Positions 597 to 18,234 of a stretch of DNA of 34,874 bases are shown here, piece after piece. The notes under the pieces were generated by a model. The model was not told the origin of the DNA and searched no databases. It saw only the letters and a list, made by a program, of their open reading frames with translations. The position numbers and the translations under genes were made by a program. Positions within the stretch are counted from its first letter, which is position 1; the number at the start of each line of letters is the position of its first letter. Origin of the DNA: a virus; IMG/VR virus record IMGVR_UViG_3300042485_000366, positions 1 through 34,874 of that record; one strand, 5' to 3'.

Positions 597-1954
597 ATTA
601 CAGGAGTTGTAGTTCCGTTTGCAACAGTTGAACTAAAATCCGTTCCTGTTGTGCCTAATGTTAAAGCAGCTACGCTTGTAACTGTTCCTACTCCTGCACC
701 ACCTACTAAAGCAACCGTTCCACTTGCAGCAGGGAAAATTATACCATAATCATTTCCGGTAGTTAACCCACTAGGTCTAAATGAAACTGTTAATGAACCC
801 CCAAATTGTTTATCAACTAATTTAATATTATCTGCAAACATTCTTAAAGCAGAACCTGTTACTTCATTATTAAAATAATTTGTTAAATTACCCTTTACTG
901 AAATATTATTTGCTCCCATATCCAAAGCAGAAGTTGCTCCTGTATATGGAACGTAAGTTGAAGCAGCCGTTGCAGTACTTAATTTGTTATTAAAAGTTGT
1001 CCAATCAGCACTTGATAAAGCTCCTCTATTTGCAGCCGAAGCCGTAGGTAAATTAAAAGTATGCGTTGCAGTTGAACTTGATATAGCAAAGTCTGTTCCA
1101 CTCGTTCCTGTCGCTAAAAATTGTATTTGTCTTGTTAAGTTATTTAACGTAGTTAATCCCTTAGAAAATGTTGTAACTACTTGACACAAATGATTATTCT
1201 CTGTGTGTAAAGTAACTGTTTTTGTATCTACATTTGCATATATTCTAATTGCTAATCTATCTGTTATAGTTAAAACACTTGCAGTCACAGGGATAGCAAA
1301 ATAATAAGGACTTAATGTTGTTCCATTACTTAAATATTCAGGTACACTTTGACTGCTACCTAATAGCGTAAAAGTAGTGCCGTCATATTTATAAAGCTCT
1401 GCATATACATAAGGATTATGCGCATTAGAATTTACACTAAAATAAAACTCACAATTAAAGTTTCCTGCAGGCACTTCTAATAAAGCAGGGTCATTAGCAT
1501 CTGTTAAATAACTCGCTATATATCCATTTGCCGAAATACTAATATCTGTTCCTGCACCTGCAATTGGGTCTTTGCTTAATTCTTTATATGCAACTCCACC
1601 TATTGTACCTTGTGAAACACTTGAATTTAGATAATAAGAAACAGAACTTCCCCCACCTGTTGATGTTGGAAAATCTGCTAATGCTCCATCCCCTCTTACA
1701 TATTGAGTAGCATCCCCTGCAAAGCCTATATTAATTGTTCCTGCACTTGTTATTGGACTTCCGGTTATCGTTAAAGCATCCCCTGTTTCAGTAACACCTA
1801 CGCTTGTAACTGTTCCAATAGTTGAAAATAAATCAGCTATCTGTAATAATGTTACCTTTTTAGAAACACCTGTTATTGGGTCACCTATGATTGTTAAGTC
1901 AGTAGATGCCGGAGCCATCTCTGTCGCTAGTTGATTTATTTTTTTAGATTCCAT
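1..1954 (-). CDS. Tail fibre protein, N-terminal part (runs off the left edge)
   Basis: An uninterrupted minus-strand frame runs from an ATG at 1954 to the window edge (651 codons), although no long ORF is obvious because the stop lies outside. The protein starts MESKKINQLATEM and is rich in Thr, Ser, Gly and Asn, typical of Bacteroidetes phage fibres that begin with a short virion-binding segment followed by beta-rich repeats. The 15-residue motif GxLSSxDWxTFNxKQ recurs three times. The start overlaps the stop of the upstream gene by 11 bases. The frame at base 1 matches the frame at 34279 exactly, so on a circular molecule it would continue into the 32903 segment and end in a peptidase S74 chaperone, giving about 1,109 residues. 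Receptor binding is inferred from the family. The reading frame is seen directly; the circular joining is inference. Confidence 0.85.
   Translation of the reverse strand, partial: MESKKINQLATEMAPASTDLTIIGDPITGVSKKVTLLQIADLFSTIGTVTSVGVTETGDALTITGSPITSAGTINIGFAGDATQYVRGDGALADFPTSTGGGSSVSYYLNSSVSQGTIGGVAYKELSKDPIAGAGTDISISANGYIASYLTDANDPALLEVPAGNFNCEFYFSVNSNAHNPYVYAELYKYDGTTFTLLGSSQSVPEYLSNGTTLSPYYFAIPVTASVLTITDRLAIRIYANVDTKTVTLHTENNHLCQVVTTFSKGLTTLNNLTRQIQFLATGTSGTDFAISSSTATHTFNLPTASAANRGALSSADWTTFNNKLSTATAASTYVPYTGATSALDMGANNISVKGNLTNYFNNEVTGSALRMFADNIKLVDKQFGGSLTVSFRPSGLTTGNDYGIIFPAASGTVALVGGAGVGTVTSVAALTLGTTGTDFSSTVANGTTTPVITLNVPTASATNRGALSSADWTTFNNKQSTLSLTTTGNSGSATLVSNTLNVPTYTLAGLGGISLTSLSATTPLSYNNTTGAFSIQVANTSQDGYLSSTDWNTFNSKQSTITNPVTGTGTSGQVTYFNGTSSVTSSSNFKFDGTNLTIGNPSSALAQLHIYNASAAASFLLQTNSTTDYSEIAVRNNSSTATSYFRQYST
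278..1035 (-). repeat. Three copies of a GxLSSxDWxTFNxKQ-coding module
   Basis: Similar stretches of about 60 bases at about 981-1035, 513-573 and 278-339 each encode a version of the same 15-residue motif (RGALSSADWTTFNNK, RGALSSADWTTFNNK and DGYLSSTDWNTFNSK). They are fibre repeat modules and a likely substrate for recombination between fibre segments. Confidence 0.7.
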
Positions 1955-2384
1955 TAGTAGGTATTTGACAAGTGTCGTTTAATGAAGATAATGTTAATGT
2001 AAAGTCTATTTTAACACCTGCTAAATAATCAGGGTCTGATTCAGTATAAAATGATAATGTCATACTATCACTAGCAATCCAATTGTAAATAGGGTCTCTT
2101 AATTCAGCGACCATATCCTGACCAACTAAAGTCATATCACTTAATACCTCTGTCTCGTTTGTTTCTTCCATTAACATTCTATCCATAACATAGATAGAAA
2201 AATTATATTGTATTTGCTTTGCTAGTATCTGTGCATCTATTAAACTAAAAAACATAGCAGGATAAGTAACCTCACCATTGCTAAGTCTTTCCCACACATC
2301 ACCGAAATACACGAACTTAATTTGCTCGTGGTTGTTTCCGAATGTTGTTATTTGCTTTACTATTTGATTGAGTGTTAATCCCAT
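1944..2384 (-). CDS. Putative neck/tail-completion protein
   Basis: This 146-residue protein starts MGLTLNQIVKQITTFGNNHE and has no signal peptide or membrane segment. It lies between a connector-like gene (2453) and the tail fibre, where Bacteroidetes siphoviruses usually carry a small head-tail or tail-terminator protein. The predicted mix of an N-terminal helix and later strands fits tail-terminator folds, but I recognise no catalytic motif and base the call on position and general resemblance. Its last codons overlap the fibre start by 11 bases, which suggests coupled translation. Function is inferred; that it is a gene is well supported by length, spacing and start context. Confidence 0.6.
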   Translation of the reverse strand: MGLTLNQIVKQITTFGNNHEQIKFVYFGDVWERLSNGEVTYPAMFFSLIDAQILAKQIQYNFSIYVMDRMLMEETNETEVLSDMTLVGQDMVAELRDPIYNWIASDSMTLSFYTESDPDYLAGVKIDFTLTLSSLNDTCQIPTNGI

Positions 2385-2451
2385 TATTTTTTGTTTTTTC
2401 TAAATAAACTTTTAGCTTATTTTGATTTTTAATGTTTGCTTCTTTGCTCAT
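2317..2451 (-). CDS. Small possible ORF overlapping the neck-protein start
   Basis: A 44-residue frame starts at an ATG two bases after the stop of the connector-like gene (TAATATG) and overlaps the first 68 bases of the 146-residue neck gene in another frame. It is rich in Lys and Asn, with no motif. The coupled start favours a real product, but the low complexity and the overlap argue against it. Confidence 0.3.
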   Translation of the reverse strand: MSKEANIKNQNKLKVYLEKTKNNGINTQSNSKANNNIRKQPRAN

Positions 2452-2452
2452 A

Positions 2453-3025
2453 TTAACATCCTATTTTGCCCTGATACTTTTGTTCTAAGTTTTTATTCTC
2501 ATAAACATTATCATCTTCTAAATATAAAGATGAAGTATAACCCTCTAAATCAGGAATGATTGTATCTATCCCACTTGTAAAGTTTAAATATTCAGGGTAC
2601 AAAGTATTGTTTTGTCTTAAATACTTAATCAATCTTTGCTTGTAAAATTCTGCTCTTGTCCTGTATCTGTTAGCCACATCAATCATATCTTGCATTGATG
2701 GGTTTTCTGTATTGTCTCCTGACTTTCTTAATAAACCTTTGTTATAAAACTGATATGATAACCCCATAGGTAACTCACTCATAACATAATAAATCAAACA
2801 ATCGGCTATATAATTATTTAGTAATAAAGTTTCGTCTCCATTTAATGTTGAACCGTTTATTGCACTTTGCAATTTATTATATAATGTACTACCCAATGCA
2901 GGGAGTATATACATATCCTGTGCCGTTTTAATTTCCGGCAATATTAATTTCTCATCCACGTTTGCGTGTAAGCCGGTTCTATCTTTTATCCCTTGTACTG
3001 ATATGAATAATATATTTAATGACAT
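2453..3025 (-). CDS. Head-tail connector/adaptor-like protein (DUF6712-like)
   Basis: This 190-residue, mostly helical protein begins MSLNILFISVQGIKDRTGL, followed by a segment resembling NVDEKLILPEIKTAQDMYIL and LGSTLYNKL. This arrangement is familiar from a family of Bacteroidetes phage proteins (DUF6712 as I recall it) found beside portal genes and thought to act as head-tail adaptors. It lies four bases after the portal stop and upstream of the neck-type gene, in line with a role in the connector stack. No enzymatic residues are seen. The family assignment is from memory of the sequence pattern; the role is inferred from position. Confidence 0.6.
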   Translation of the reverse strand: MSLNILFISVQGIKDRTGLHANVDEKLILPEIKTAQDMYILPALGSTLYNKLQSAINGSTLNGDETLLLNNYIADCLIYYVMSELPMGLSYQFYNKGLLRKSGDNTENPSMQDMIDVANRYRTRAEFYKQRLIKYLRQNNTLYPEYLNFTSGIDTIIPDLEGYTSSLYLEDDNVYENKNLEQKYQGKIGC

Positions 3026-3028
3026 TTC

Positions 3029-5011
3029 TTATTTTTTTCTTGTTACTATGTTTGTTTTCCACTCGTGTCTGCAGGATTCACTTATAGTTCCGTTATCGTT
3101 CCACCATCCACCTCTCCTATCCCAAACAGAATATCCTAATCTTGCACTCATCATTTCAATATCACTTCTGCTATAAATTTTATTAGCATCTAGTAAAGCT
3201 ACACAAAAAGGTCTGCTATTAGTTTTATCAGAATTATTAAATCCTGCTATCCAATCATAAGAATACCTAACTAATATTTCAGTCGTTTCAGGTTTTACTT
3301 TACCTACTGTTTTAGATAATGGTTGCGTTAATTCTCTTGAAACAATTATATTGCTATTAATACCTTTACCTATTTTTGTTTCAGTAGTTTTTAGGATATT
3401 TCTATCTTCTAAATCTTTTAATATTGTATTGATAGTATCTACATCTTCATCTAAAACTTCTGCCAATACCTCAGGGGTTACATCTTTTTGTTTAGAAATT
3501 TGGTCTAATATATCTGATTCTAATTGTGTAACATCAGCGAACATATGAAAGTCGGATTCATCACTAAATCTTTTCTTAGATTTCCAAACATTAAACGCAT
3601 CCTTGCTTTCACCGAATTCATAAAATACACCAAAGTCTTGTGCTGCAAATTCAGCATCCATCTCATCCGAACCTAGCCAAGTATTTACTTCATCATCACT
3701 TAAAGCATATCCTGTTTTAAGCATTGCAGCAGCTTGTTCTCTATTGATTTTACCTTTAGTAAACTCACGAATGATACGCTGCATATTTTGCCACTCACGA
3801 CCTTTTAAACCTTTGATATGCTCGTTAACTGATAAGCCCTGTGCCGGAACTATTGCCTCAGCAGTAGGTGCGTATTTAGTCATATCAATACCAATCTTTT
3901 CTAATATCCATTCTTTAGGTGCTACTTCTTTAATAGTTTGCTCACTAAACTCAATTCCTATTGGTTCAGTAGGGATAATCTTTATTTCAGTTGTGACATT
4001 TTTATATTTAGCTAACATATTAAATACACTTTCTAAATGCATTTGTTTAGCATTTACATATGTGTTCTTAAATATCTCATAGCCATCACGCATTTCTGTT
4101 CTGCTGCCTAGCTTACCGGCTTCTGCAATACCCATAATTGATGGGGTCGTAACCTGATGACCACTAAATATGTTAGTCTGTATTAATTCATCTACTCTGC
4201 CAAAATCTTCTTTTGTTAAATCACTTGTACCCAAATCATCTACGACAGGCTTCCTAGATATATCATTGACAAAAGCAATCATATATTTTTTACCGTCTGC
4301 ACCACTATAAGTTTTTCTTAATCTGTTATCTACATTGCGCTTCTCCTCATCATTAGGCTCACCATTCGGTAAGGTAATAAGTTTACTAGCAGAAAACCCT
4401 GTCTGTGCATTTCCTAAGATATGCTTAGAAACTTCAATGTCAGATTCAATATAATTTAATGCAGCAAAATAACTAGGTAATCCATATATACCAATATTAG
4501 GTCTGTACTCTTTTATGTACAGAATTTGTTTGCCTGTTGGTTGCTTAGGGTTAAATGCAGCCACAACTAATGGCTTTATCTTATTGTCTTTCCAATCTTC
4601 CTTATACCAATACTGTGTATTGTCTTTGTTAGTTCTTATCTTAACATAATCACAATGCCATAACTCGGCAATGTTACCGGCTAAATCCCAAATAACTTCT
4701 AAGTAAGCACCACCAAATATTTCAACATCTAAAGATACTTTTCTAGTTAAATCGTTTAAAGATTCAACCCTGTTAGCTTTATCTATAAATGCCTGTGCAT
4801 CAGGTTCACCTGACCAACCATTGCCGGTAATATAATGCACCTTACTTTTAATAATGGCACTATGCTTTGATGACTTATTGTATAAGTCAACTATGTATTC
4901 CGGATAATCGTTATTTTCTCCGTATTTAATATATCCACCATCTACACCCTTTTTCTCTTTGAATTCAGGTTGCCTAGCCTCTGCGAATGTTAATACTCTT
5001 AAATCTATCAT
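3029..5011 (-). CDS. Phage portal protein with long C-terminal extension
   Basis: The protein has 660 residues. The first 370 or so look like a portal protein: an N-terminal segment with YGENNDYPEYIVDLYNKSSKH, a beta-rich middle containing FGGAYLEVIWD, and a region around residues 270-330 with TPSIMGIAEAGKLGSRTEM and then a long helix. Portals form the dodecameric DNA gate at one capsid vertex and bind terminase during packaging. The remaining 290 residues are unusual: a winged-helix-like segment at about 490-560 and an end domain with RPFCVALL, YSVWDRRGGWWN and CRHEW (Cys647, His649), resembling Cys/His-containing domains at the ends of phage head-morphogenesis proteins. The gene overlaps the upstream gene by ATGA, suggesting coupled translation. 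The portal call is good; the role of the extension is unknown. Confidence 0.85.
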   Translation of the reverse strand: MIDLRVLTFAEARQPEFKEKKGVDGGYIKYGENNDYPEYIVDLYNKSSKHSAIIKSKVHYITGNGWSGEPDAQAFIDKANRVESLNDLTRKVSLDVEIFGGAYLEVIWDLAGNIAELWHCDYVKIRTNKDNTQYWYKEDWKDNKIKPLVVAAFNPKQPTGKQILYIKEYRPNIGIYGLPSYFAALNYIESDIEVSKHILGNAQTGFSASKLITLPNGEPNDEEKRNVDNRLRKTYSGADGKKYMIAFVNDISRKPVVDDLGTSDLTKEDFGRVDELIQTNIFSGHQVTTPSIMGIAEAGKLGSRTEMRDGYEIFKNTYVNAKQMHLESVFNMLAKYKNVTTEIKIIPTEPIGIEFSEQTIKEVAPKEWILEKIGIDMTKYAPTAEAIVPAQGLSVNEHIKGLKGREWQNMQRIIREFTKGKINREQAAAMLKTGYALSDDEVNTWLGSDEMDAEFAAQDFGVFYEFGESKDAFNVWKSKKRFSDESDFHMFADVTQLESDILDQISKQKDVTPEVLAEVLDEDVDTINTILKDLEDRNILKTTETKIGKGINSNIIVSRELTQPLSKTVGKVKPETTEILVRYSYDWIAGFNNSDKTNSRPFCVALLDANKIYSRSDIEMMSARLGYSVWDRRGGWWNDNGTISESCRHEWKTNIVTRKK

Positions 5012-5382
5012 TGTCTAATTGTATAAGTGTCTGTTGTTGTATATTGGTTATATGTTAGGGTCGAACCTGAAAGCCACATAATACCTGTTTCTAGCTTGTT
5101 TAAGCCTGTTGGATTTAAGTTGCTAGTACTTGCTTGTTCGTACACTTCGTAGGTATATTGACCCTCTAATGCAGCACTAAAGCTAGTGTTAGTAACAATT
5201 GTAAATTCATTGTATCTATCCTTGTATAAACTTAAATCAGATGTATTTAAAACCACAAATTTAATAATGTTATTACTACTTCTATTTGTAAACACAAATA
5301 AATAGTTAGGTGTTATCAATAACTGCTTTTCAGTTAAAGTCATTATGATTGTATTGGTCTGTCCCTTAGTTAAATGTATCAT
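5008..5382 (-). CDS. Conserved phage structural protein, function unknown
   Basis: This 124-residue protein begins MIHLTKGQTNTIIMTLTEKQ and alternates hydrophobic and polar residues in a way that suggests an all-beta, immunoglobulin-like fold. Similar short proteins lie immediately before portal genes in Bacteroidetes phages, and virion decoration or tail association is usual guesswork. It is the first gene after a 363-base untranslated region and a terminator, so it should start a new transcript that continues through portal, connectors and fibre. It overlaps the portal start by four bases (ATGA). Confidence 0.6.
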   Translation of the reverse strand: MIHLTKGQTNTIIMTLTEKQLLITPNYLFVFTNRSSNNIIKFVVLNTSDLSLYKDRYNEFTIVTNTSFSAALEGQYTYEVYEQASTSNLNPTGLNKLETGIMWLSGSTLTYNQYTTTDTYTIRQ

Positions 5383-5489
5383 CTATTATAAATAGCAATA
5401 ATAATAATATTTACAAAACAAGTAGGTAAAGCTATTATTTGACTTATATATTAGCAATATGTTTCTAAAACTGCACTTTTTGATGTGCT

Positions 5490-5510
5490 TTTTGTGATAT
5501 TTTCACAAAA
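5490..5510. promoter_or_regulatory. Perfect inverted repeat, possible operator
   Basis: TTTTGTGA and TCACAAAA are separated by five bases. The dyad resembles the binding site of a dimeric regulator and lies about 110 bases upstream of the 5382 gene. No matching regulator can be named. Confidence 0.4.
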
Positions 5511-5564
5511 TTGGAACTTTAATTCTAATATCTTGTTGTACTAAAATTATAATAAGTGGTCATT

Positions 5565-5596
5565 AAAGTAACATTAGAATAGGCTTATGTTACTTT
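5565..5596. repeat. 10-bp perfect inverted repeat
   Basis: AAAGTAACAT at 5565-5574 and ATGTTACTTT at 5587-5596 are separated by 12 bases and can be extended by TTA/TAA with one bulged base. It could be an RNA hairpin in the untranslated leader or a protein-binding dyad. Confidence 0.5.
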
Positions 5597-5690
5597 TAAG
5601 GGACATTATCAGCATAAAGTAAAGCTAAGACTTGACTTGTCCACTTTTTTATGCTGTTTACGGAAACGTGAAAGGTGTAATATAGTGAAC

Positions 5691-5722
5691 AAAAAACCCC
5701 CACCTAGAAAACTAGGCAGGGG
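5691..5722 (-). terminator. Intrinsic terminator after the tail-tube gene
   Basis: On the minus strand the RNA reads CCCC-TG-CCTAG, loop TTTT, CTAGG-T-GGGG, then GTTTTTT. A GC-rich stem with a T tract directly after it, 24 bases beyond the stop of the 5746 gene, is a textbook rho-independent terminator. It should separate capsid/tail-tube transcription from portal and fibre transcription. Confidence 0.85.
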
Positions 5723-5745
5723 AACTAACTATGAAAAACTGTAAA

Positions 5746-6264
5746 CTATCCTGCAGTTGTAAGAGCAGCAGCTACTGTACTATTAACCTCAGGTGCTAAA
5801 GCAGGTTCAGCTCCTGTGAATGTTAATGTATAACCACTTCTGTCTCCCTCAGCAGTACCTGTTGCAGCACTACCGGCAGTCAAATCCAATGACCTTGTTT
5901 TACCTAGCATAAAGAACTTACCATTGTTGTCTTTAGCAACTGCTGTAAGACTATTTTGTGCTAATAAAAGAATTTCATTTCTCGTATTTGCTTGTAATTT
6001 ATTTAAGATTATTGTTAATTCAGGAGTGAAAAACAAGGTACCATTTTGAACATTCGATGCTACATTTTCAGTAAACATTGAAGTTCCTTTTGTTAACTCG
6101 TATTTATAAAACTTCTTACCTGCAGCTTTTACTAAAGCAGTAATAACACCACTAGCTTCTGTAGTTGAAGTAATATCCGAACTTGCAATAAAATAAACCT
6201 CTGTAATTCCACCTAGTGAATCACGACAATCAAGGGTATATCCTTGTGTTAATGCACACGCCAT
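5746..6264 (-). CDS. Probable major tail tube protein
   Basis: This 172-residue protein starts MACALTQGYTLDCRDSLGG and ends with a Gly/Ala/Thr-rich tail. The pattern (a TQGYTLDCRDSLGGI start, ELTKGTSMFTENV, LNKLQANTRNEILLLAQ, a VAKDNNGKFFMLG strand, then GDRSGYTLTFTG) is one I associate with the abundant tail-tube or virion protein encoded after the capsid gene in Bacteroidetes phages. Such proteins form hexameric rings stacked into the tail. It lies 57 bases after the capsid gene and ends at a strong terminator, consistent with a highly expressed pair. A minor capsid protein is the main alternative. Confidence 0.65.
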   Translation of the reverse strand: MACALTQGYTLDCRDSLGGITEVYFIASSDITSTTEASGVITALVKAAGKKFYKYELTKGTSMFTENVASNVQNGTLFFTPELTIILNKLQANTRNEILLLAQNSLTAVAKDNNGKFFMLGKTRSLDLTAGSAATGTAEGDRSGYTLTFTGAEPALAPEVNSTVAAALTTAG

Positions 6265-6320
6265 AATATTTATTTTATTTTATTTAAAAATGGGGAGTAT
6301 ATTTCAACTCCCCTTTATAA

Positions 6321-7271
6321 TTAGATAGCTACTTTTACAATCTCATCAGGGAATGCAATGTTCACACCCATTTTGAATTCTGCTGCAAAACGTACTTCAT
6401 CAGCCTCTTTAGCAAAGAAGATTTCAAATTTTTCTTCTTCGTTTAATAAGTCTGTACCTAAGAACAAATTGCTTAAACGCATTGCGTAAATATCATTTGT
6501 GCTATTTAAACCTTCTACTGCAACTACTTTAATTGGAGTACCCGGCAATACAAATTCGCTATCAGCTTTACCATCAAAAGAGTAGTTAAACATATTAGCA
6601 TTCTTCAATGCAATAGTGTAAGTACGGAAAGTATCTTGACCAACAAAGATAGTCATATCATCAGCAGCTACAACTTTAGCAGGGATTGCTTTGTAAACAC
6701 CATCTAATAAACTAACTACGTTAGCTGCAGTGATAGATGTTAATGGAGCACCTGAAACATATCCTGATACGTTAGCATCAACTACACCACTAGCAGCACC
6801 AATCAATTTGATTAAACCATCAAACTTGTTTAAGTTACCGTTTGCAGAAGCAGTATCACCTTGCCAAATAGAAGTCTCTAATTGAGAAGCAATTGTTTTA
6901 GCTTTTCTATCAGCATAATCTTGCTCGAAAGGAATTGAATCATACTGAGAACCTGTTGGTAAAGCCTTTTGTAAATACTTAGCTTCTAATGCCTTTGGAC
7001 ATAAAGCCTCTTGAACTTTGATTTTACCTACTGTTACAGTTCTTTGTGTGAAAGAAGTTGTACCTGATGCGTTCCAACCACAAGACCCACCTGCTTGGAA
7101 AAAAGCATCTGTGTCCATAATGTTAATGGTCTCTGCTGATTTAACTCCAACCATTACGTTGCCTGCACTCTTAATTAAAGCTGCAGTTTTTGCTCCTAAT
7201 ACAGAAGAAGAAACCAATAATGCTTCGTTCTCTTTTGTATAATTTGTTAATGTACTTACTGAAAATGACAT
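6321..7271 (-). CDS. Major capsid protein
   Basis: This 316-residue protein begins MSFSVSTLTNYTKENEALLV, lacks signal or membrane segments and is rich in Ala, Gly, Val and Thr. Features fit an HK97-fold phage capsid subunit of about the usual size: an N-terminal arm, a central segment with FEQDYADRKAKTIASQLETS (long spine-helix candidate), ADDMTIFVGQDTFRTY, and an end segment EVRFAAEFKMGVNIAFPDE. It follows the scaffold-like gene by 11 bases and precedes the tail-tube gene, the usual order. The HK97 fold cannot be proven from sequence by eye, but the position after protease and scaffold makes the call firm. Confidence 0.8.
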   Translation of the reverse strand: MSFSVSTLTNYTKENEALLVSSSVLGAKTAALIKSAGNVMVGVKSAETINIMDTDAFFQAGGSCGWNASGTTSFTQRTVTVGKIKVQEALCPKALEAKYLQKALPTGSQYDSIPFEQDYADRKAKTIASQLETSIWQGDTASANGNLNKFDGLIKLIGAASGVVDANVSGYVSGAPLTSITAANVVSLLDGVYKAIPAKVVAADDMTIFVGQDTFRTYTIALKNANMFNYSFDGKADSEFVLPGTPIKVVAVEGLNSTNDIYAMRLSNLFLGTDLLNEEEKFEIFFAKEADEVRFAAEFKMGVNIAFPDEIVKVAI

Positions 7272-7282
7272 TTGTTATAAAT

Positions 7283-7879
7283 TTATTTGTTTAAAATTGC
7301 GTTTCTATATTTCTCTAATCTTTCGTATTTACTATCATTAGTACTTACATAAGATTGAAATGCGTTTGCTGCTTTTTGAGTAGGTTCAGCAGTTGGGGTA
7401 TTTGAAAGTGCTTCTACTAATTCAGCTACTTGTGCAAATCCCTCTTTTACTTTGCTCTCTAATTTAGCAATCTTCGCATCTAATTCCATTTTTTTCTTCT
7501 CATAATCATCCTTTAACTCTTGAATCATTGCAGTTGTATCTTGCGCAGGTTCAACAGGTTCAGCCGGTGCAACAGGTTCTTCTTCGATAACATCTTCTTT
7601 AGGAGATGCTATTTCTACGATTACACCTAACTCATCAACTTGGATAATTGTGCCATCCATTAATTGATGCTCACCTTGTGGAGCAGGAGTGCCATCAGCC
7701 ATCTCTACCATACCACCAATTTCTAATGCAGAAATCATAACCTTAGTACCATCTACTAAAGAATATTCAGCCATTTCTACCTTTGTAACTGTAGGCTCTA
7801 CAGGTGCAACAGGCTCAACAACTTGTGGCATATCTTCGAATAATGCCTTGATTTGTTTTAATGCTTCTTTTGGATTCAT
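7283..7879 (-). CDS. Capsid scaffold-like protein
   Basis: This 198-residue acidic protein has three parts: residues 1-75 with two copies of a DGT-containing beta motif (LVDGTKVMISALE, LMDGTIIQVDELG), a low-complexity Pro/Glu/Val linker at about 95-115, and a predicted coiled coil (residues 120-160, DDYEKKKMELDAKIAKLESK). The end, SKYERLEKYRNAILNK, is basic. Acidic coiled-coil proteins encoded immediately before the capsid gene are typical scaffolds that shape the procapsid and are later removed by the head protease, which here is encoded upstream at 9476. The function is inferred from composition and position. It is the first minus-strand gene beyond the plus-strand cassette. Confidence 0.65.
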   Translation of the reverse strand: MNPKEALKQIKALFEDMPQVVEPVAPVEPTVTKVEMAEYSLVDGTKVMISALEIGGMVEMADGTPAPQGEHQLMDGTIIQVDELGVIVEIASPKEDVIEEEPVAPAEPVEPAQDTTAMIQELKDDYEKKKMELDAKIAKLESKVKEGFAQVAELVEALSNTPTAEPTQKAANAFQSYVSTNDSKYERLEKYRNAILNK

Positions 7880-7941
7880 TTTATTTTTCTTTAAATGTCA
7901 ATATATAGCCTAGTTTATCACTTAACCATTTATCCCTAATA

Positions 7942-8013
7942 TTTACCGTTCATCACATTTTTTAAAAAAGGTGCCTAATTGTTTGGAAGATGTACAAAAC
8001 CTGTGTACTTTCG
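7942..8013 (+). promoter_or_regulatory. Promoter with upstream 16-bp element, driving the plus-strand cassette
   Basis: TTTG at 7982-7985, a 20-base spacer and TACTTTCG at 8006-8013 match the Bacteroidetes promoter consensus TTTG-N20-TAnnTTTG with one mismatch. The start codon of the first cassette gene follows 25 bases later. The element TTTACCGTTCATCACA (7942-7957) ends exactly 24 bases before the -33 box, the same spacing as at the 28863-28934 promoter. Confidence 0.7.
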
Positions 8014-8037
8014 TTATGTAATCAAATGACAAACACT

Positions 8038-8139
8038 ATGAGCCACAAGATTCTCCCCCCTCCGATTGAAGTTAAGATGTTTCTGCTTTTAATCGTTTCT
8101 GCTATCGTTTCAGTATTTATCCAATCATTAATCAAATAA
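8038..8139 (+). CDS. 33-residue single-pass membrane peptide
   Basis: The frame starts at ATG 8038 in the context CAAACACTATG, nearly the same as the start of the next gene (ATAAACACTATG). It encodes a short polar N-terminus (MSHKILPPPIEVK) followed by about 18 hydrophobic residues (MFLLLIVSAIVSVFIQSL) and IK. It is first in the plus-strand cassette, 10 bases before the 191-residue gene. No family is recognised; a small inner-membrane peptide is the only supported description. Confidence 0.55.
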   Translation: MSHKILPPPIEVKMFLLLIVSAIVSVFIQSLIK

Positions 8140-8149
8140 AATAAACACT

Positions 8150-8725
8150 ATGAAAAATCTAATTGAAAAGTATGAAAGTTTGGGTTATTCTTTGAATGTT
8201 AAAGAAGAACCACTTATTATTGCTAACTGTATGAAACTTAAAAGTAAAGCAAGATTCCCTAAGCCTTTATTTAATTTCAGATTCAGAAGCATTGAAAGAA
8301 TGAATGAATTCTGTACTGAATGGATTGAAAGAGTAGAAACTAATATCAATTCACAAAATGAATTAAAAGCTAAAAAGAAAGAAGCACAAAAGGTAATGAA
8401 CCACAATTTTAAAGAAGGTATGATTCTTTACAATAGTTGGGGATATGACCAAACTAACATTGACTTCTATCAAATTGTTAAATCTAAAGAAAAATCAGTA
8501 ATTTTAAGAGAAATTGCTAGTAGCACTGTTGCAGGTTCAGAAGGTTTTATGAGTGCAAGTGTTAAGCCTGTTAAAGATTATTTTGTAGGCGAACCAATTC
8601 TTAAAAAAGTTAATCTTTCAGTAAATTATAATGGAAGCATTAGCTATCACATTGCAGCTAAATATGGTTGTTTCTGCGAGTATGCAAATGCAGAATCAGG
8701 AGTTTACTCTAGTTGGTACGCTTAA
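8150..8725 (+). CDS. Conserved hypothetical protein in the plus-strand cassette
   Basis: This 191-residue soluble protein has two parts. Residues 1-85 are basic and mostly helical (KYESLGYSLNVKEEPL, then FRSIERMNEFCTEWIERVE and a Lys-rich helix). Residues 88-190 contain FKEGMILYNSWGYDQTNIDF, YQIVKSKEKSVILREI and end CEYANAESGVYSSWYA. I have the impression that the second part (SWGYDQTN, followed by short strands) recurs in small proteins of plasmids and phages, but I cannot name a family. It sits six bases before the HD hydrolase and is expected to be co-transcribed with it. A role linked to the hydrolase is possible but unsupported. Confidence 0.7.
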   Translation: MKNLIEKYESLGYSLNVKEEPLIIANCMKLKSKARFPKPLFNFRFRSIERMNEFCTEWIERVETNINSQNELKAKKKEAQKVMNHNFKEGMILYNSWGYDQTNIDFYQIVKSKEKSVILREIASSTVAGSEGFMSASVKPVKDYFVGEPILKKVNLSVNYNGSISYHIAAKYGCFCEYANAESGVYSSWYA

Positions 8726-8731
8726 TTAAAT

Positions 8732-9256
8732 ATGAATAAAATAAAATATAACTCACTAGCCCTTGCTGCTGAATACCACAAGTATCAGCAGTATGGGGTT
8801 AAACCTTATCTGTATCATTTATTAGATGTATGGTTTGAAGCAGAAAGGTTTTGCAATCAAAATAATATTGTAGGGATAAAAATGGATGTAATTCTTTCTG
8901 TATCTGCATTACACGATATACTTGAAGATACTACCTTATTTGAAAGTAAACTTAAGCAAATAAGTAATAAAGTTTATACTAATGTTAAACTGTTAACTAA
9001 AAAACCACCATTAGATAGATACTATATTGAAATATCAAAAAGTGAAATAGCTTCAATAGTAAAATTATGTGACAGGATATGTAATGTTAGGGAATGCATA
9101 AAGAATAGAAACTACCATAAACTAAAAAAGTATATATCTGAATCAAATGAATTCAAGATTATATACTCTAATATTAATAAGCCTTTATCTAATAAGTTAG
9201 AAAGGCTTTATTTAAAAGGGAAGCTAATTAGTATTTTTCGTATTCAGCCTTACTAA
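8732..9256 (+). CDS. HD-domain alarmone hydrolase-like protein (RelA/SpoT hydrolase, MESH1-like)
   Basis: This 174-residue protein has the motif series of RelA/SpoT-type (p)ppGpp 3'-pyrophosphohydrolases: AAEYHKYQQYGVKPYLYHLLD (His29), SALHDILEDT (His61, Asp62, Glu65, Asp66) and KLCDRICNV (Asp114, Asn118). In this family the His, HD and later Asp bind Mn2+, and the ED pair and the Asn serve catalysis; all are present. No synthetase or regulatory domain follows, so it resembles small alarmone hydrolases. It is the last gene of the plus-strand cassette, and its 3' end overlaps the convergent 9228-9446 gene by 29 bases. The opposite-strand protease at 9476-10738 carries a synthetase-like domain, so hydrolysis of that domain's product is a plausible role. 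Another HD nucleotidase activity is possible. Confidence 0.8.
   Translation: MNKIKYNSLALAAEYHKYQQYGVKPYLYHLLDVWFEAERFCNQNNIVGIKMDVILSVSALHDILEDTTLFESKLKQISNKVYTNVKLLTKKPPLDRYYIEISKSEIASIVKLCDRICNVRECIKNRNYHKLKKYISESNEFKIIYSNINKPLSNKLERLYLKGKLISIFRIQPY
9179..9208. terminator. Possible bidirectional terminator hairpin at the convergent gene ends
   Basis: AAGCCTTT (9179-9186) and AAAGGCTT (9201-9208) enclose CTAA-TAAG-TTAG, giving a 12-bp stem with a two-base bulge. AT-rich sequence follows on both strands. It lies within the end of the hydrolase gene and just beyond the stop of the convergent small gene, where transcripts from both strands should end. The T tracts are weak. Confidence 0.4.
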
Positions 9257-9446
9257 TCATTTTGCCTTCTAAAATAGCATCAACCAATTTGTTAGGTGCA
9301 CCTTCTACTTTGTATGGGGTCGCACCTTTTTCTTTAGCTTCATAACCACCCTCAGGGATATTTCTAAAAGCAACTTCTTCAAAAGAATTCTCAAAGAATA
9401 CTTCTTTCCCATTGGCAATTTCACTAAGTAAGTTCTCATTTCTCAT
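9228..9446 (-). CDS. Small hypothetical protein next to the protease-synthetase fusion
   Basis: The ATG at 9446 gives 72 residues starting MRNENLLSEIANGKEV; an in-frame GTG two codons upstream is less likely. The protein is acidic and probably alpha/beta, with FFENSFEEVAFRNIPEGGYE and a C-terminal helix KLVDAILEGKMISKAEYEKY. No family is recognised. It follows the protease-synthetase gene by 29 bases on the same strand, so it should be co-expressed with it, and its 3' end overlaps the convergent hydrolase gene by 29 bases. An immunity or regulatory partner of the synthetase domain and an ordinary small virion protein are both possible; nothing in the sequence decides. Confidence 0.65.
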   Translation of the reverse strand: MRNENLLSEIANGKEVFFENSFEEVAFRNIPEGGYEAKEKGATPYKVEGAPNKLVDAILEGKMISKAEYEKY

Positions 9447-9475
9447 ATACACAATTTACTAATATTATTTGATTA

Positions 9476-10738
9476 TTACAAAAATTTACTGTAATATTTT
9501 TTAGATTCTTGCTCTATTTGTTTTCTTTGTTTATCATCCTTCCCAATTGTTAATACACGATACTTTTCGTATAAATCGTGACCTTTTCCACCTTCAATAC
9601 CAACTTGCTTTTTAATTTCATTATACTTCTTTTCACCTAGTATCAATTTCGCATTTTCAGGCTTTTCCTTAGCATAAATCATTTTAGGTGTATTTACCTG
9701 TATTTCTGCAGTTAGTCCATTAGAAGTCTTTATATTGATAAGATTGCCACTATAACCTAAAGGATTAGATTCGTGTGTCTGTGTTTTAATCCTGCCATTT
9801 CCATTAGCTACTCTAGGGTCATTACTTAAATCCTTTATAATGTTTTGCATTGCTACAGGGTCATCAGTAATAATAGTATTTCTTACAGAATCTTTAATGT
9901 TACCTAGATTCCCATTTTCTTCTGTATTAGTTTTTCTTACAATAGAATCTGCTGATTTCATATTGATTGGAGTTACAACTGCACCATATTTTTCTGCTAA
10001 ATCTTTACCTAATTTATCTACCTCAGGTGCTGCATCTTGTGCTTTAGAAACTAAGTCTTTTACATCTTCATCTTCAACAGATACGGTTTTGCCACCACCT
10101 GTTGATTCTTTATCACCACCACCCTCAGGTTGCCTACCACTTCCCGGCCCTCCTAATTCAACTCCTTCTAATATTTTATATATTTCACTCATTACCTGTT
10201 GTTCTTTTGAAACTTTAGGGGAGTAATTAAATATACCCTCAATTGAAAATCCGTTCACGTTCCCTTGCTTTACTTGATTCCATACATCCTCATTTTCAAC
10301 TAGCATAGAAACGAACCAACTGCCATCCGGTGCATCCTCAAATCCTTTCATTGGGTGTATGCCTCTTGTCTTATCACTAATAAAACTCTCAAACATTGTT
10401 ACCCCTGTTTCAATTTGGTTAGGGTCGTGCATTAGGTTCACATTGTTTTGATACCCTTTCTTAAAATACTTTTGCACAATCTTAACAATCGTGTCTTTAG
10501 AAAAAGCAACATAGTAGTCACCAAAATTAGCATCACTTCTAAAGATAGGAGTGTCAGCCAACATAGCGCAGCCACTAATAATATGCTTATCTTCACTAAC
10601 AATTTGAAACTTCTGTTCATTTTTAAATGCATTCCAATTCTTTTGAATTGCAGGTCTATCTACTAATGAAACGAATTGCACCTCTGCATCATCATTTAAA
10701 TCATCAGATATTTCCAACATATATAAAGGTAATTCCAT
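9476..10738 (-). CDS. XkdF/S78-type capsid protease fused to a RelA/SpoT-like synthetase domain
   Basis: The protein has 420 residues. Residues 1-175 match the XkdF-type prohead protease pattern: YMLEISDDLNDDAEVQFVSLV at the start, NLMHDP with the likely catalytic His104, and VNGFSIEG with the likely catalytic Ser165. A flexible linker follows (LGGPGSGRQPEGGG, residues 195-208). Residues 235-400 resemble RelA/SpoT synthetase domains: MKSADSIVRK (Arg268, Lys269), NIKDSVRNTII (Asp283), PLGYSGNLINIK (Tyr329), LTAEIQVNT (Glu345, Gln347) and GHDLYEKYR (His387). In the family the first Asp and the EIQ Glu act in Mg2+ binding and pyrophosphate transfer; both are present, while the usual Arg of EIQxRT is Asn349. 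The protease role in procapsid maturation is firm. The fused domain is probably a virion-borne effector, by analogy with toxin domains fused to phage head proteins. It lies between tape measure and scaffold genes. Confidence 0.8.
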   Translation of the reverse strand: MELPLYMLEISDDLNDDAEVQFVSLVDRPAIQKNWNAFKNEQKFQIVSEDKHIISGCAMLADTPIFRSDANFGDYYVAFSKDTIVKIVQKYFKKGYQNNVNLMHDPNQIETGVTMFESFISDKTRGIHPMKGFEDAPDGSWFVSMLVENEDVWNQVKQGNVNGFSIEGIFNYSPKVSKEQQVMSEIYKILEGVELGGPGSGRQPEGGGDKESTGGGKTVSVEDEDVKDLVSKAQDAAPEVDKLGKDLAEKYGAVVTPINMKSADSIVRKTNTEENGNLGNIKDSVRNTIITDDPVAMQNIIKDLSNDPRVANGNGRIKTQTHESNPLGYSGNLINIKTSNGLTAEIQVNTPKMIYAKEKPENAKLILGEKKYNEIKKQVGIEGGKGHDLYEKYRVLTIGKDDKQRKQIEQESKKYYSKFL

Positions 10739-10764
10739 AACTATAAATATATTTATTTTAAATA

Positions 10765-12840
10765 TTAACTAAATCGTGCCCTTTGTTTTATTGCTTCTAC
10801 TCTTTGTTGGTTGCTTGTAACATCAGTCTCAATCACATATGCCCTTACTGCTTGATTGCCCATTTGGTTAATTGACGCTTGACTTATGTTTGTAGTCTGT
10901 GCTTGTGGTGCAGCCGGTATAATAGGTGCAGAAGTTGATACGTTAGGCATACCACCACCACCACCACCACCTGCTGCTGCTGAATTTATTGATTGAATAC
11001 CTTGTGCTGATGCAGCAATAACTGATGCAATAGATAAAGCACCACCTATCCTTGCAGGGATAAAAGCAGGGTTAGGAATTCCGGGGGGTAGTATAGCAGG
11101 TACACTCATCATTTGTGTAACAATTTTAGCAATAGCCGCACCCTTTTCTATTAACAATCCTGCAATAGCTACTGCTTTACTTTTACCTGCAATTTGACCT
11201 ATTAAAGCACCTGCTTGTGCTGCAAAGTCAATATATTGTAATTGCAATGCCATTTTTGCATCCTGTGCTTTTTTCTCTGCTAATGCTTCTTCATCTATTA
11301 TTTTAATCCTTTCATCACCATACTTTTTATATATTTGTGTTTTTTCAAATTCAGTTAACTCTGTATTTTCAAGTTCAATAGCTTGTTGCTCTTTAAGCAA
11401 TTCTAACTTAGTTGAATACCTTTCCTTATCAGCTTCAAAATCTACATCATTTGCTGCTATTAATTTATTAATATCTTCAATCCTTTGTTGAACTCCTAGA
11501 GCCCTTATACCTCTTTCATCTTCTTGTTTTTTTAATAAGTCTTCTTTTTCTTTCTTAGCTTGTTCATCAGTTTGTTCTTTAGTTATTTTTGTTATTTCTG
11601 CATTAGCTTTATTCCCTAATTCAATAATTAAAGCAGTTTTAGTTGTAGCTTTTAATTTTTCGTTAGCATTAACTTGATTTATCTCTTGAAGAAGTTGGGC
11701 ATCTACTGCTGCTTTTTTTGCTTGGTATTCATCTGTAATACCTGCAATTTCAATTTCTGTCTTTAATTTTATTATTTTATCTTGCGCATCTAATTCAGCA
11801 TCATCTTTTTCTTTTTGTAATTGTTTTGCTTTTTCATTATTTTGTTTACTTATTTCAGATGCTTTTTTACCTGCATCTTCACTTTGCTTTTTTTGTTTTA
11901 ATTGAAAATCATTTTGTGCTGCAATTCCCTCTGCATTTATTTTATCAATTTCCTCTTTATCTTTTTGCCTAGCATCAGTATTATTTTCACCAACTTCTTT
12001 ATAATGTCTTTGTAAAGACCTTATCCTAGCTGCTCTTGCATTTTGTTCAATTTCAAAAATTTCTTTTTCACTCTTACCGGCTAGTTTTGCTTTTGAAAGG
12101 TTTATTTTTTCTTGATTTGATAAGAAGTCTTGTTCAGCTTTTAATCCTGCATCAGCAAATTTTAATACACTCGCATTTAATTCTCTTTGTGCTTCTGCAG
12201 CTTTTTCAGCAGAACTTTGGAAACTTTGAAATGCTGCTACTGCTTCACCTAATGCAATAATAAGTACACCAATACCTGTTGAAATAATTGCAGTTTTCAT
12301 TACCTTAAATGAAGTAGATGTAACCTCTGCTGAAATTCCTAATGCTTTTAAAGAAAATGCTGCAGCTTTATTAGCCATCTCATTTGCTTTTTGGAATATT
12401 GTAGTAGATTTTATTACTGCTCCTAATTGCTTAAATGAATCAATGCTTTCACCAACAGATTGCAACCCTTGTGAAATTGCCATCGCTGATTGAACCTTTA
12501 ATAATGTCTTTTGGACATCTTCTGATTCAACACCGAATAATGCCATAGCACCTTGTACTGCACCAAATCCACCGGCAACTCCTGATAGTGAAGCAGTTAA
12601 TGCCTTAAACTTTGCATCAGGATTAAAAGCCTCTGTTAATGCCTTAGCATCACCTATCGCATCTTTAAGTTCAGCAGCTCTTTTAGCTGCATTTATAGCT
12701 TCTTTTGATGTAGCACCAAACTTATCAGCCAATGCCGTTACCTCCTGTTGTGCTTCTCTTAATTGTTTTTTAAGTGAACCTACCGAGCTCGTAGCACCTG
12801 AGGTATCTACGTTTACATTTAAATTTAAATTCTCTGCCAT
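10765..12840 (-). CDS. Tail tape-measure protein
   Basis: The protein has 691 residues. The start (NVDTSGATSSVGSLKKQLRE) and the next 140 residues resemble tape-measure proteins that open with helix-forming repeats (LADKFGATSKEAINAAKRAA). Hydrophobic stretches lie at about 180-205 and 570-640, and a long Lys/Glu/Gln-rich coiled coil at about 230-540, followed by a Gly run (residues about 645-652). Tape-measure length sets tail length; at roughly 1.5 angstrom per residue this predicts about 100 nm. The start shares bases with the preceding stop (TAATG). No lysozyme or peptidase motif is visible. As the longest coiled-coil protein in the tail block the call is strong. Confidence 0.85.
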   Translation of the reverse strand: MAENLNLNVNVDTSGATSSVGSLKKQLREAQQEVTALADKFGATSKEAINAAKRAAELKDAIGDAKALTEAFNPDAKFKALTASLSGVAGGFGAVQGAMALFGVESEDVQKTLLKVQSAMAISQGLQSVGESIDSFKQLGAVIKSTTIFQKANEMANKAAAFSLKALGISAEVTSTSFKVMKTAIISTGIGVLIIALGEAVAAFQSFQSSAEKAAEAQRELNASVLKFADAGLKAEQDFLSNQEKINLSKAKLAGKSEKEIFEIEQNARAARIRSLQRHYKEVGENNTDARQKDKEEIDKINAEGIAAQNDFQLKQKKQSEDAGKKASEISKQNNEKAKQLQKEKDDAELDAQDKIIKLKTEIEIAGITDEYQAKKAAVDAQLLQEINQVNANEKLKATTKTALIIELGNKANAEITKITKEQTDEQAKKEKEDLLKKQEDERGIRALGVQQRIEDINKLIAANDVDFEADKERYSTKLELLKEQQAIELENTELTEFEKTQIYKKYGDERIKIIDEEALAEKKAQDAKMALQLQYIDFAAQAGALIGQIAGKSKAVAIAGLLIEKGAAIAKIVTQMMSVPAILPPGIPNPAFIPARIGGALSIASVIAASAQGIQSINSAAAGGGGGGGMPNVSTSAPIIPAAPQAQTTNISQASINQMGNQAVRAYVIETDVTSNQQRVEAIKQRARFS

Positions 12841-14855
12841 TAGTACGTTGTTTCAATTACTTTTAATAAACTTATTTTGGTCGTATTGTATTCCATTGGG
12901 TTATAACCCTCTACCTTATTTAATCTAAATAGTACACCATCTATCCAAATGTATTTGCTAAAGTCTAAATTAAATATATCGATAGTATTTAATAAAGCCG
13001 AACAGGTTAATAGCTTACTGTTCTTATCCGTTATCTCTGACATATATGTACTATGAAATACATTGAACACATTATTGCTAGTGAAATTATCTGAACTATA
13101 AAATATTTCTTTAGGTGCTCCAAAATTAACATCATTTTGTGGATTTGCAGGGTCGTCTAAATGTCCTGCATAACCGTATGAAGTTAATGTCAATAGCGTT
13201 GCTGATAAATTTTTAATAGACCACGAAGCTACTGATGCTATTTTCTTTACTTGCATTATTCTAATTATGCTATCCATACTATCCTCTGCACTATTGGCAT
13301 TAGACTTTTTATAAATAGCCGGATATACTTTATCAGTTCCAATAGCTTTAAATAAAACTGATGGTGCAAATATTACATCAACAGTCTCCGTATTCTTACT
13401 AAAGTCAAATGAAGTATCAAATATCCTGTCACCATAAGATTCCGAATATTTCTTTTTATAGTTGTCATTGTAAAAGTCGCTATCTTCTTTAAATTTAAAA
13501 TTGTAATACCTAGCATTCATTTCACTCATTGGCTTAATGCTTAAAGGCTTTGACCTGTCTATTTTATTAGACCAATCATTTGCGTTGGAACTGCTAACAT
13601 CATAAAAATCAATATAAGGTTTTATGATAATGTTATTCTCTTGATACCTGTCATCATATACATATAGATTAAACATTTTACAAATGCTTAAAAATAAGTC
13701 TCTTTGAAATATCCCTTTAGGAATACAATCATTCATTAATAAATTATCCCCTATTGATAATGCTACCGGTATTAAAGAAATAGCATTAAAGCTAACATCA
13801 CCATCATTTATTGTAACAGGATTGTCATTTTTATTATCTGCATCATTAGCAAATCTAAATTGTATGTAATCGTTTTGTATCATTAGTATCTCAAAAGTTC
13901 CACCAATAAAAAAGTCATCAGTAAAAAATTCGCTATAAACAGTAATGCCATTTTTTAGAATACTAAAAGTTCCCTCTTGTGAAGTCCCTGTAAAGTTATA
14001 ATCAAACTTTAGATTAAAAGAAGTAGCACCGGTATATGTGAATTTAGAATTAGCACTTGATGGAACTAACCCTGAACCGGTAACTGTTGTAAATCTAACA
14101 AAGGAAATATTTAATACCTCTTGTGGTGCAGTTAACAAAGCATTGTTTAAGTCACTTGTCGTTTTAGTTAACTGCTTTTGATTGTGTGGTATTACTAATC
14201 TTTTAAAGTAATCTGTTGAAAAGAAATCACACTCATAAGTATAGTCTATATTTTCAAACATCTTATCTATATATTCTTTGATATATATTGCCGGTCTAAA
14301 TGTAGTATATTGAAAATCTACTTTGTTTGTACTTACGTTTCCGTAATCTATCAATGGATAATAATAACCTACACCTCTTGCAGCATCCCAACTTGCAGTT
14401 ATATTAGTTGTATTGTAAACGTGGTCATAAGCACTGAAATCTAAATCTTCTAATTTCTTATTACCTATTGTATTCATAAGACCACCTAACTCACCAAAGA
14501 CGCTGCATTGATATTCAATAGTTTCCTTATCTACGACTATTTCCAAAATCCTTAATGTGCCTTTAAATATTTGTACCTTGTCAATATATATAATACACTT
14601 AGCAGATTTACTTGCATTGAAATTATAGTTTACATTTGCTTTAGTTTCATCAAATTCATTAGCATTCCCAATATCAAATACAAATCCAAATATTTGGTTA
14701 TTCCTAGCCGTACCGGATAAAGATATTGTTTTACTAAATGATGTGTTCTTAGTTCCAAAGTCTGTTATGTCATCTATGGTATAAGTAAATTCTGTACTTA
14801 TGTCCTGCAATAAATCTAGTCTGTTATCTTCTATATATATTTCTGTACTAATCAT
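12840..14855 (-). CDS. Large tail/baseplate structural protein
   Basis: This 671-residue protein begins MISTEIYIEDNRLDLLQDIS, followed by FTYTIDDITDFGTKNTSFSKT, a start familiar from large tail proteins of Bacteroidetes phages encoded beside the tape measure. It is beta-rich, aromatic-rich and lacks membrane segments. The position between the 408-residue tail protein and the tape measure fits a distal-tail or tail-associated hub component; no hydrolase motif is seen. Both ends overlap neighbours by one base (TAATG), consistent with a single polycistronic tail message. Confidence 0.65.
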   Translation of the reverse strand: MISTEIYIEDNRLDLLQDISTEFTYTIDDITDFGTKNTSFSKTISLSGTARNNQIFGFVFDIGNANEFDETKANVNYNFNASKSAKCIIYIDKVQIFKGTLRILEIVVDKETIEYQCSVFGELGGLMNTIGNKKLEDLDFSAYDHVYNTTNITASWDAARGVGYYYPLIDYGNVSTNKVDFQYTTFRPAIYIKEYIDKMFENIDYTYECDFFSTDYFKRLVIPHNQKQLTKTTSDLNNALLTAPQEVLNISFVRFTTVTGSGLVPSSANSKFTYTGATSFNLKFDYNFTGTSQEGTFSILKNGITVYSEFFTDDFFIGGTFEILMIQNDYIQFRFANDADNKNDNPVTINDGDVSFNAISLIPVALSIGDNLLMNDCIPKGIFQRDLFLSICKMFNLYVYDDRYQENNIIIKPYIDFYDVSSSNANDWSNKIDRSKPLSIKPMSEMNARYYNFKFKEDSDFYNDNYKKKYSESYGDRIFDTSFDFSKNTETVDVIFAPSVLFKAIGTDKVYPAIYKKSNANSAEDSMDSIIRIMQVKKIASVASWSIKNLSATLLTLTSYGYAGHLDDPANPQNDVNFGAPKEIFYSSDNFTSNNVFNVFHSTYMSEITDKNSKLLTCSALLNTIDIFNLDFSKYIWIDGVLFRLNKVEGYNPMEYNTTKISLLKVIETTY

Positions 14856-16081
14856 TATCTAAATTGACTTGTTAAATATTTACCAATTTCAATATCTATT
14901 TCAAAGTTAAATAACTTATCACTTGTTTCTAATTTATATTCATAGTTAGTGCTGCTAATTGTAACAGGGAAATAAGCACCTTGTACTTCCATATATACAA
15001 TCGTACTTGCGAATAACTGTGCCAACCATTCATAGTCCTGTTCACTTACCCAATCGGATATTAGATGGAATTTATCCTTATGCTGAATAGCATAGTTTAA
15101 AGTCGTTTCATTATACTTGTTATATGAATCAATGTTTGACATTGTATTGCCGGATAGCTGCCAATCGTTTCTTCTATACGAAGCCCTTTGTAATTCGGTT
15201 GACCTTTTATTAACCAATGCAAATTTCATAGTGTCCCAACCCCCTAGCCTATTAAGGAAATGCAAATTGTACTGCCTATATTTAGGATAGCACTTTTGTA
15301 TAAACTGCAGTTTCCTAGATACTGCCACCCCTCGTTTTATATAAACATTATAGCCATAAGTATCTTCTGTAACTAATGTCCTACCGGCAAAAGTATTTAT
15401 ATGCCCTGCCTGACAATTAAATAAATTCATTTCACCTGTGAATGTTATGCCACCACTTACTGTATCTATGACCGAACCTGCTTCGTTTAAAACATCAACG
15501 ATAGCATTATATGTACCGGCAGTAATCTTAAAATATGTGGCATAAAAATTATCCCCATACTCAATAGTAATCTTTTCCGTTTCCCTTTCCGTTATCCAAT
15601 CATCTGTAAAGTTTTCTAATAATAGATTGTCGTAGTAATCGGATAGTACTAATGGTGTATTGTTGTTTACAAATAATATATCTGCAAATAATGGTGGGTA
15701 ATAATTATATGCAGCTAATGCACCGGATGCAAGGTTTGATGTAGTTATTAAACTGCCACCACTTACATATTCCTCACCTACTCTAATTTGGCTATCTACT
15801 TTTATCTTATCATTAGATGCTACTAATATAGAACTGCCGGATGGTTCAAAGTAATTAGTTACATATGAACGTACCATTGGTGATGCATTAAACACTCCAT
15901 AACTGCCCTCTGCTGATGGGGATGGATATACCTTTGTCCTGCTCACTTGTGAACCGTTTACATATACATCATACACGAACTTAAATGCAGTTAACCCTAC
16001 ATTTGTTGAACTTGATACGAACCATAAGTCATCGTGCATACTTGAATAAGGTGCAGGGCTACTTTGTATTGTTATTGCCAT
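14855..16081 (-). CDS. Tail structural protein (minor tail/distal-tail type)
   Basis: This 408-residue beta-rich protein starts MAITIQSSPAPYSSMHDDLW and contains segments typical of Bacteroidetes phage tail proteins in this position: DLWFVSSSTN, FKFVYDVYVNG, the central VYIKRGVAVSRKLQFIQKCY and the C-terminal YFPVTISSTNYEYKLETSDK with a FEIDIEIGKY end. I know this arrangement as an uncharacterised virion protein encoded before the large tail protein. A baseplate or distal-tail role is inferred. It overlaps the preceding gene by 23 bases and shares TAATG with the next. Confidence 0.6.
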   Translation of the reverse strand: MAITIQSSPAPYSSMHDDLWFVSSSTNVGLTAFKFVYDVYVNGSQVSRTKVYPSPSAEGSYGVFNASPMVRSYVTNYFEPSGSSILVASNDKIKVDSQIRVGEEYVSGGSLITTSNLASGALAAYNYYPPLFADILFVNNNTPLVLSDYYDNLLLENFTDDWITERETEKITIEYGDNFYATYFKITAGTYNAIVDVLNEAGSVIDTVSGGITFTGEMNLFNCQAGHINTFAGRTLVTEDTYGYNVYIKRGVAVSRKLQFIQKCYPKYRQYNLHFLNRLGGWDTMKFALVNKRSTELQRASYRRNDWQLSGNTMSNIDSYNKYNETTLNYAIQHKDKFHLISDWVSEQDYEWLAQLFASTIVYMEVQGAYFPVTISSTNYEYKLETSDKLFNFEIDIEIGKYLTSQFR

Positions 16082-16727: not shown

Positions 16728-16761
16728 ACTAATAAATAGGGCAAAGGTATAAAAATAACTA

Positions 16762-16784
16762 ACCCCCACCTTTTTAGGGCAGGG
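16762..16784 (-). terminator. Terminator-like hairpin before the gp10-like gene
   Basis: On the minus strand CCCC-TGC-CCT, loop AAAA, AGG-T-GGGG forms a GC-rich stem followed by GTTAGTTATTTTTA. It closely resembles the 5691-5722 terminator (same CCCCTGCC and GGTGGGG arms), but its T tract is interrupted, so it may be a partial terminator that tunes expression between the chaperone and tail genes. Confidence 0.55.
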
Positions 16785-16807
16785 GTCAGCAAATCAAAAA
16801 ACACTAT

Positions 16808-17562: not shown

Positions 17563-17651
17563 ATGCTTTTGATTTTGGATAAAGATAATGCAATTACATA
17601 TATTAAACAAGCTATTGGAATACTAATGATAAAAAATCTTATGTACTTCAT
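17547..17651 (-). CDS. 34-residue hydrophobic peptide
   Basis: ATG 17651 opens MKYIRFFIISIPIACLIYVI, one transmembrane segment, followed by a short basic end (SLSKIKSICGTK). It starts two bases after the preceding 23-residue frame stops (TAACAATG) and overlaps the chaperone-like gene by 16 bases. The spacing favours translation, but so short a frame may be chance. Confidence 0.35.
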   Translation of the reverse strand: MKYIRFFIISIPIACLIYVIALSLSKIKSICGTK

Positions 17652-17653
17652 TG

Positions 17654-17725: not shown

Positions 17726-17727
17726 AG

Positions 17728-17892: not shown

Positions 17893-17896
17893 AATG

Positions 17897-18139: not shown

Positions 18140-18234
18140 AGTTATAGTTTTTAAAATATCCCTGCCCATCTAGGAAACTAACCAACATCCCTATTGTTTA
18201 ATTTATTTGATTGTTTGTTGCAGGGATAGTATGT

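Follow-up and report, generated by a model that had tools for sequence, protein, structure and literature searches.

A 16-bp element stands at a fixed distance upstream of three promoters in the DNA of an uncultivated Bacteroidota phage, which raises the question of what kind of regulatory site it is and which protein recognizes it. The window analysed here is the whole stretch of 34,874 nucleotides of IMG/VR record IMGVR_UViG_3300042485_000366. We found the exact 16-mer TTTACCGTTCATCACA at 7942-7957 (+), 18678-18693 (-) and 28919-28934 (-) and nowhere else in the window, at the same coordinates as in a preliminary description of this DNA. When up to 3 mismatches were allowed, there were 4 matches, where 0.30 were expected, and none of 100 shuffles had as many; a copy with 2 mismatches lies at 18698-18713 (-). 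The preliminary description had also noticed a core copy 20 bp upstream at 18701-18713. That copy is present, but it is not peculiar to the 18.7-kb site, as the 16-mer has an upstream partner exactly 20 bp off at each of the three promoters. The partner is perfect at 18.7 kb (TTTACCGTTCATC at 18701-18713) and degenerate at 7.9 kb (TTAACCATTTATC at 7922) and 28.9 kb (GTAGCCGCTTATC ending at 28954). The 16-mer is one half, the one nearer the promoter, of a tandem direct repeat with the unit ACCGTTCAT N11 ACCGTTCAT, and the 9-nt cores lie 11 nt apart at 3 of 3 window sites. We annotated the three double sites as putative LytTR-type tandem operators: operator 1 at 7922..7957 (+; TTAACCATTTATC ... 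TTTACCGTTCATCACA, period 20), operator 2 at 18678..18713 (-; TTTACCGTTCATCCCTGATATTTACCGTTCATCACA, both half cores perfect) and operator 3 at 28919..28954 (-; GTAGCCGCTTATCCTTACATTTTACCGTTCATCACA). A 36-column operator profile, built from phages other than that of the window, scored operator 2 at 53.9, operator 1 at 47.1 and operator 3 at 36.2, while no score above 18.4 arose in 60 simulated windows, and the profile revealed no further strong operator site in the window.

Downstream of each operator lies a predicted promoter of the Bacteroidota housekeeping type, with a -33 TTTG box and a -7 TAnnTTTG box. Promoter 1 (+) has its -33 box at 7982..7985 and an imperfect -7 box, TACTTTCG, at 8006..8013; promoter 2 (-) has its boxes at 18649..18652 and 18620..18627 (TATCTTTG), and promoter 3 (-) at 28891..28894 and 28863..28870 (TATATTTG). 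From the 16-mer to the TTTG we counted 24, 25 and 24 bases at sites 7942, 18678 and 28919, and from the TTTG to the -7 box 20, 21 and 20 bases, so that the distances first described (24-25, then 20-21) hold at all three sites. Promoter 1 is predicted to drive a cassette at 8038..9256 (+) that consists of a 33-aa ORF (8038-8139), an ORF of phrog_37844 (8150-8725) and an HD phosphohydrolase-like ORF (8732-9256; phrog_990). This cassette sits, on the opposite strand, within the presumed unit of promoter 2 (1944..18588, -; limits inferred), which runs from ORF 18361-18588 through the structural genes. The presumed unit of promoter 3 (18776..28829, -; limits inferred) begins with ORF 28686-28829 and includes genes for an ERF annealing protein (27484-28026), a DnaA-C-like protein (26533-26895), a VRR-NUC protein (24063-24377) and TerL (18776-19927).

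Several other features of the window were recorded. A 74-aa ORF at 9228-9452 (-), which adjoins the HD hydrolase cassette on the opposite strand, shows weak similarity to the Tis1 immunity protein family (E 0.003). One acetyltransferase-like and two glycosyltransferase-like ORFs at 21037-23116 (-) lie within the replication-packaging operon and are conserved in the group of phages to which the window belongs (group A). Bases 1-596 recur at 34279-34874 with 570 identities (95.6%), within a tail-fibre-like ORF that is cut by both ends of the window. Because this near-repeat joins the two ends, the window is probably the whole genome, circularly permuted or terminally redundant; a fibre gene with an internal repeat is the alternative.

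The preliminary description had proposed a motif search in related phages, and this search revealed many uncultivated phage contigs with the operator in conserved places. In IMG/VR, the 16-mer was found in at least 118 stretches and the perfect double site in 85, while in 50,697 annotated phage records no match to the double site extended over 80% of the query, the best E being 0.7. When redundancy was removed, there were 52 phage contexts of the exact 16-mer, and 43 of them had a partner at 20 bp with at most 3 core mismatches, a count in which some loci came from the double-site scan itself; most contexts lacking the partner look like chance matches in coding DNA. A tally of 88 of 89 pairs at spacing 20 was set aside as evidence, because part of its loci had been fetched by that same spacing, and the 43 of 52 is the fairer figure. 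Many of the operator-bearing records are fragments. Among the 30 larger genomes, window included, each carries 1-4 operators, and a hand count placed an operator directly after TerL (as at promoter 2) in 18 genomes, at the start of the ERF/replication operon (as at promoter 3) in about 16 and directly before ERF in 3 group-B genomes, and before the same 8150/HD cassette as at promoter 1 in 8-9. The nearest cultured relative found, by its portal protein (26% over 46%), was Nonlabens phage P12024S (Inhavirus), whose gene order (ERF, VRR-NUC, sigma-like, TerL) is similar to that of the window phage; however, no such operator was present in the 24.3 of its 35.7 kb that were scanned (about two thirds). 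We found nothing relevant in the literature on the operator sequence or on LytTR-controlled phage promoters.

The position of the operator relative to the promoter follows a strict pattern. Among 58 non-redundant phage operators, the -7 box TAnnTTTG begins 28-31 bp after the 16-mer at 22 sites, 38-39 bp at 5 and 48-51 bp at 17, with none at 32-37 or 40-47 bp, against a background rate of about 0.02 matches per position; four more apparent boxes, at 21 bp, are the -33 TTTG matched by the -7 pattern. The offsets gave a resultant of 0.88 at period 10, and 0 of 20000 random sets were as strong, indicating three classes one helical turn apart, upstream of the -35/-33 region. The window promoters, with offsets of 48, 50 and 48 bp, belong to the 48-51 class. 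The first T of the Bacteroidota -7 box lies at -12 (PMC6847099); when it was set there, the centre of the proximal half-site fell near -50, -60 or -70 according to class, and the two half-sites of the window operators had their centres near -70 and -90 relative to the inferred start. Start codons follow the phage operators at a median of 78 bp. Such whole-turn offsets are as expected of an activator that touches RNA polymerase. The element had originally been read as either an activator site or a UP-like element. It is not UP-like, because it is a tandem 20-bp repeat with a G/C-containing core: where a UP element would be an A/T tract just upstream of -35 without such a core, we found the conserved tandem ACCGTTCATC, followed by a separate A-rich stretch. 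The activator-type reading, by contrast, agrees with the conserved position, the helical phasing and the kinship to bacterial LytTR operators described below, and these also support well the earlier proposal that the three operons form one regulon.

We compared the half-sites with those of the LytTR family, for which Nikolskaya and Galperin (2002) reportedly gave the consensus [TA][AC][CA]GTTN[AG][TG]. The core ACCGTTCAT presumably fits this consensus. In the window the proximal half agrees with it at 3 of 3 sites and the distal half only at site 2, the upstream halves of operators 1 and 3 (ACCATTTAT and GCCGCTTAT) not being strict fits; among the 58 phage sites, 51 proximal halves, 44 distal halves and, at 38 sites, both halves agree. 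Sites of LytTR response regulators are repeats of 9-11 nt with spacers of 11-13 nt (PMC4847170), dimensions that recur at 3 of 3 window sites and in the 43 of 52 phage contexts. Operators of the AgrA, AlgR, YpdB, VirR and HdrR/BrsR type likewise consist of two direct repeats of 9-11 nt with an 11-nt spacer upstream of -35/-33. The proximal repeat of AgrA is centred near -60 (PMC4227749), which equals the phage 38-39 class. The phage sites differ in that their period of 20 is at the lower limit of the published range (20-24), that the proximal half-site precedes the start by about 50, 60 or 70 bp, and that they stand on phages without a regulator gene.

In bacterial genomes the operator is rare. 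The perfect double site gave 13 hits in 84,980 species genomes, chosen by motif only, 3 of which, in GC-rich DNA, look like chance. LytTR genes were present in 11 of the 13 hit genomes, and in 9 of these 11 the operator lay within 2.6 kb of a LytTR gene, for which chance is about 6e-17 under uniform placement. In three contigs (L171, L176 and L177) the operator stands directly before an operon of a hydrolase, a LytS-like histidine kinase and a LytTR response regulator, in L166 it lies between two small LytTR genes, and in L167 it comes after the gene for a LytTR regulator; a further genome of the same family (L304) has a one-mismatch copy 14 bp from a LytTR gene. Domain names other than LytTR at these loci are our own reading of the sequences. 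The arrangement resembles LytTR regulatory systems and autoregulated LytS/LytTR two-component operons (PMC6193735), whereas the phage operator has no accompanying kinase, membrane protein or LytTR gene. In the Bacteroidota and similar host copies, -7-like boxes follow at 29, 29, 29, 48, 50, 50 and 51 bp, phases that match those of the phages. Near-perfect double sites (at most 2 mismatches) occurred in 6 of 296 sampled Bacteroidota genomes, most of them probably by chance, and near-perfect copies in 7 of 248 genomes of one Bacteroidota family; given this rarity, either the sample does not include the true host or the host's own sites depart further from the motif. A Ruminococcus genome (L168; G053 contigs C52, C57, C77 and C121) carries several tandem operators with TCCC after the core (ACCGTTCATCCCTAAAATTA repeats), one of them before a large exported protein, and these apparently represent a clostridial LytTR regulon whose operators share the 20-bp period.

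We then considered which protein reads the operator in the phages. No LytTR domain was found in any of 49 operator-bearing phage records, nor in the 92 ORFs of the window by unfiltered hmmsearch or profile-profile comparison, where the best LytTR probability was 2.6% against 96-99% for left-out true LytTRs; the gene that a phage-encoded LytTR regulon would contain was not detected. These searches argue against a highly diverged phage LytTR-like protein beyond sequence recognition, which we consider very improbable even though phage regulators diverge fast and many small window ORFs have no assignment. A conserved small family of 74 aa (MKYLLKTE...) in L094 (5875-6099), L144, L074, L025, L118 and L112 scores faintly with the LytTR profile (E about 0.1); these weak hits are one family restricted to other phages and absent from the window, and we judged them to be chance. 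The preliminary description had suggested the phage DnaA-like, HTH and sigma-like proteins as binders. The window does encode a stand-alone DnaA C-terminal (domain IV) protein of 120 aa (26533-26895, -), a winged helix protein (27095-27307) and a sigma-like protein (23602-24084), a Bac_DnaA_C protein is encoded in 28 of the 49 records, and some upstream operator halves read TTATCC, the start of the DnaA box. However, the group-B phages G010, G011, G034, G042 and G044 and the essentially unrelated G035 and G037 have the operator and none of these families, and a gene-family matrix revealed no protein family common to all operator-bearing phages surveyed; G015 is not an independent case, because it shares its operator neighbourhood with G010. 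This phylogenetic profile rules out a phage DnaA-C, HTH or sigma protein as the general binder, and a phage-internal regulon run by a non-LytTR phage protein, which would also leave unexplained the same operator beside LytTR genes in bacteria, is unlikely.

The binder thus appears host-encoded, and only the motif and its neighbourhood point to the LytTR family. We regard a host factor of another family that recognizes the same sequence as quite unlikely, since the LytTR reading agrees with the architecture of the site, with its sequence and with its linkage to LytTR genes. A host LytTR protein might instead repress the phage promoters, as a silencer or a signal-gated brake. This is hardly probable, as none of our results favours repression, the operator lies upstream of -33 and not over the promoter, its whole-turn phasing is typical of activators, and the phage keeps it at all major promoters. 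The simplest and most likely reading is a host-encoded LytTR activator, and we think it probable that each element is a LytTR-family operator through which such a factor activates the three phage transcription units together. A LytTR-domain transcription factor of the host would bind in tandem, on the same helix face, to the two directly repeated half-sites (core ACCGTTCAT) that precede a Bacteroidota housekeeping promoter with a period of 20 bp, and the bound factor would contact RNA polymerase, leading to joint activation of the HD cassette, the structural genes downstream of TerL and the ERF/replication operon. Phosphorylation or another host signal would gate the factor. We infer from the sequences that the binder is host-encoded, that it activates and does not repress, and that a host signal gates it.

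Coliphage promoters use host activators, for example CRP, IHF and DnaA, and the window promoters are likewise predicted to borrow a host DNA-binding protein; the difference is that here the predicted regulator is of the LytTR type and serves all three main units, in several phage lineages. Since the phage has no detectable LytTR gene and has LytTR-type sites at all three main promoters, its expression appears coupled to a host control protein. More tentatively, and with somewhat less than even confidence, we propose that several uncultivated Bacteroidota phage lineages may have wired all their main promoters to the output of a host LytTR two-component system, so that the lytic programme would be conditional on a host signal sensed through operators alone, without a receptor or regulator of their own. 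Little is known of gene control in Bacteroidota phages, and a recurrent operator that predicts its host regulator offers a connection from host two-component signalling to phage expression that can be tested. The operator also allows a large group of uncultivated phages to be recognized by sequence, and its phase classes show how the RNA polymerase of Bacteroidota is activated from upstream. If the proposed reading is true, infection could depend on the state of a host gene that it names, or on the loss of that gene.
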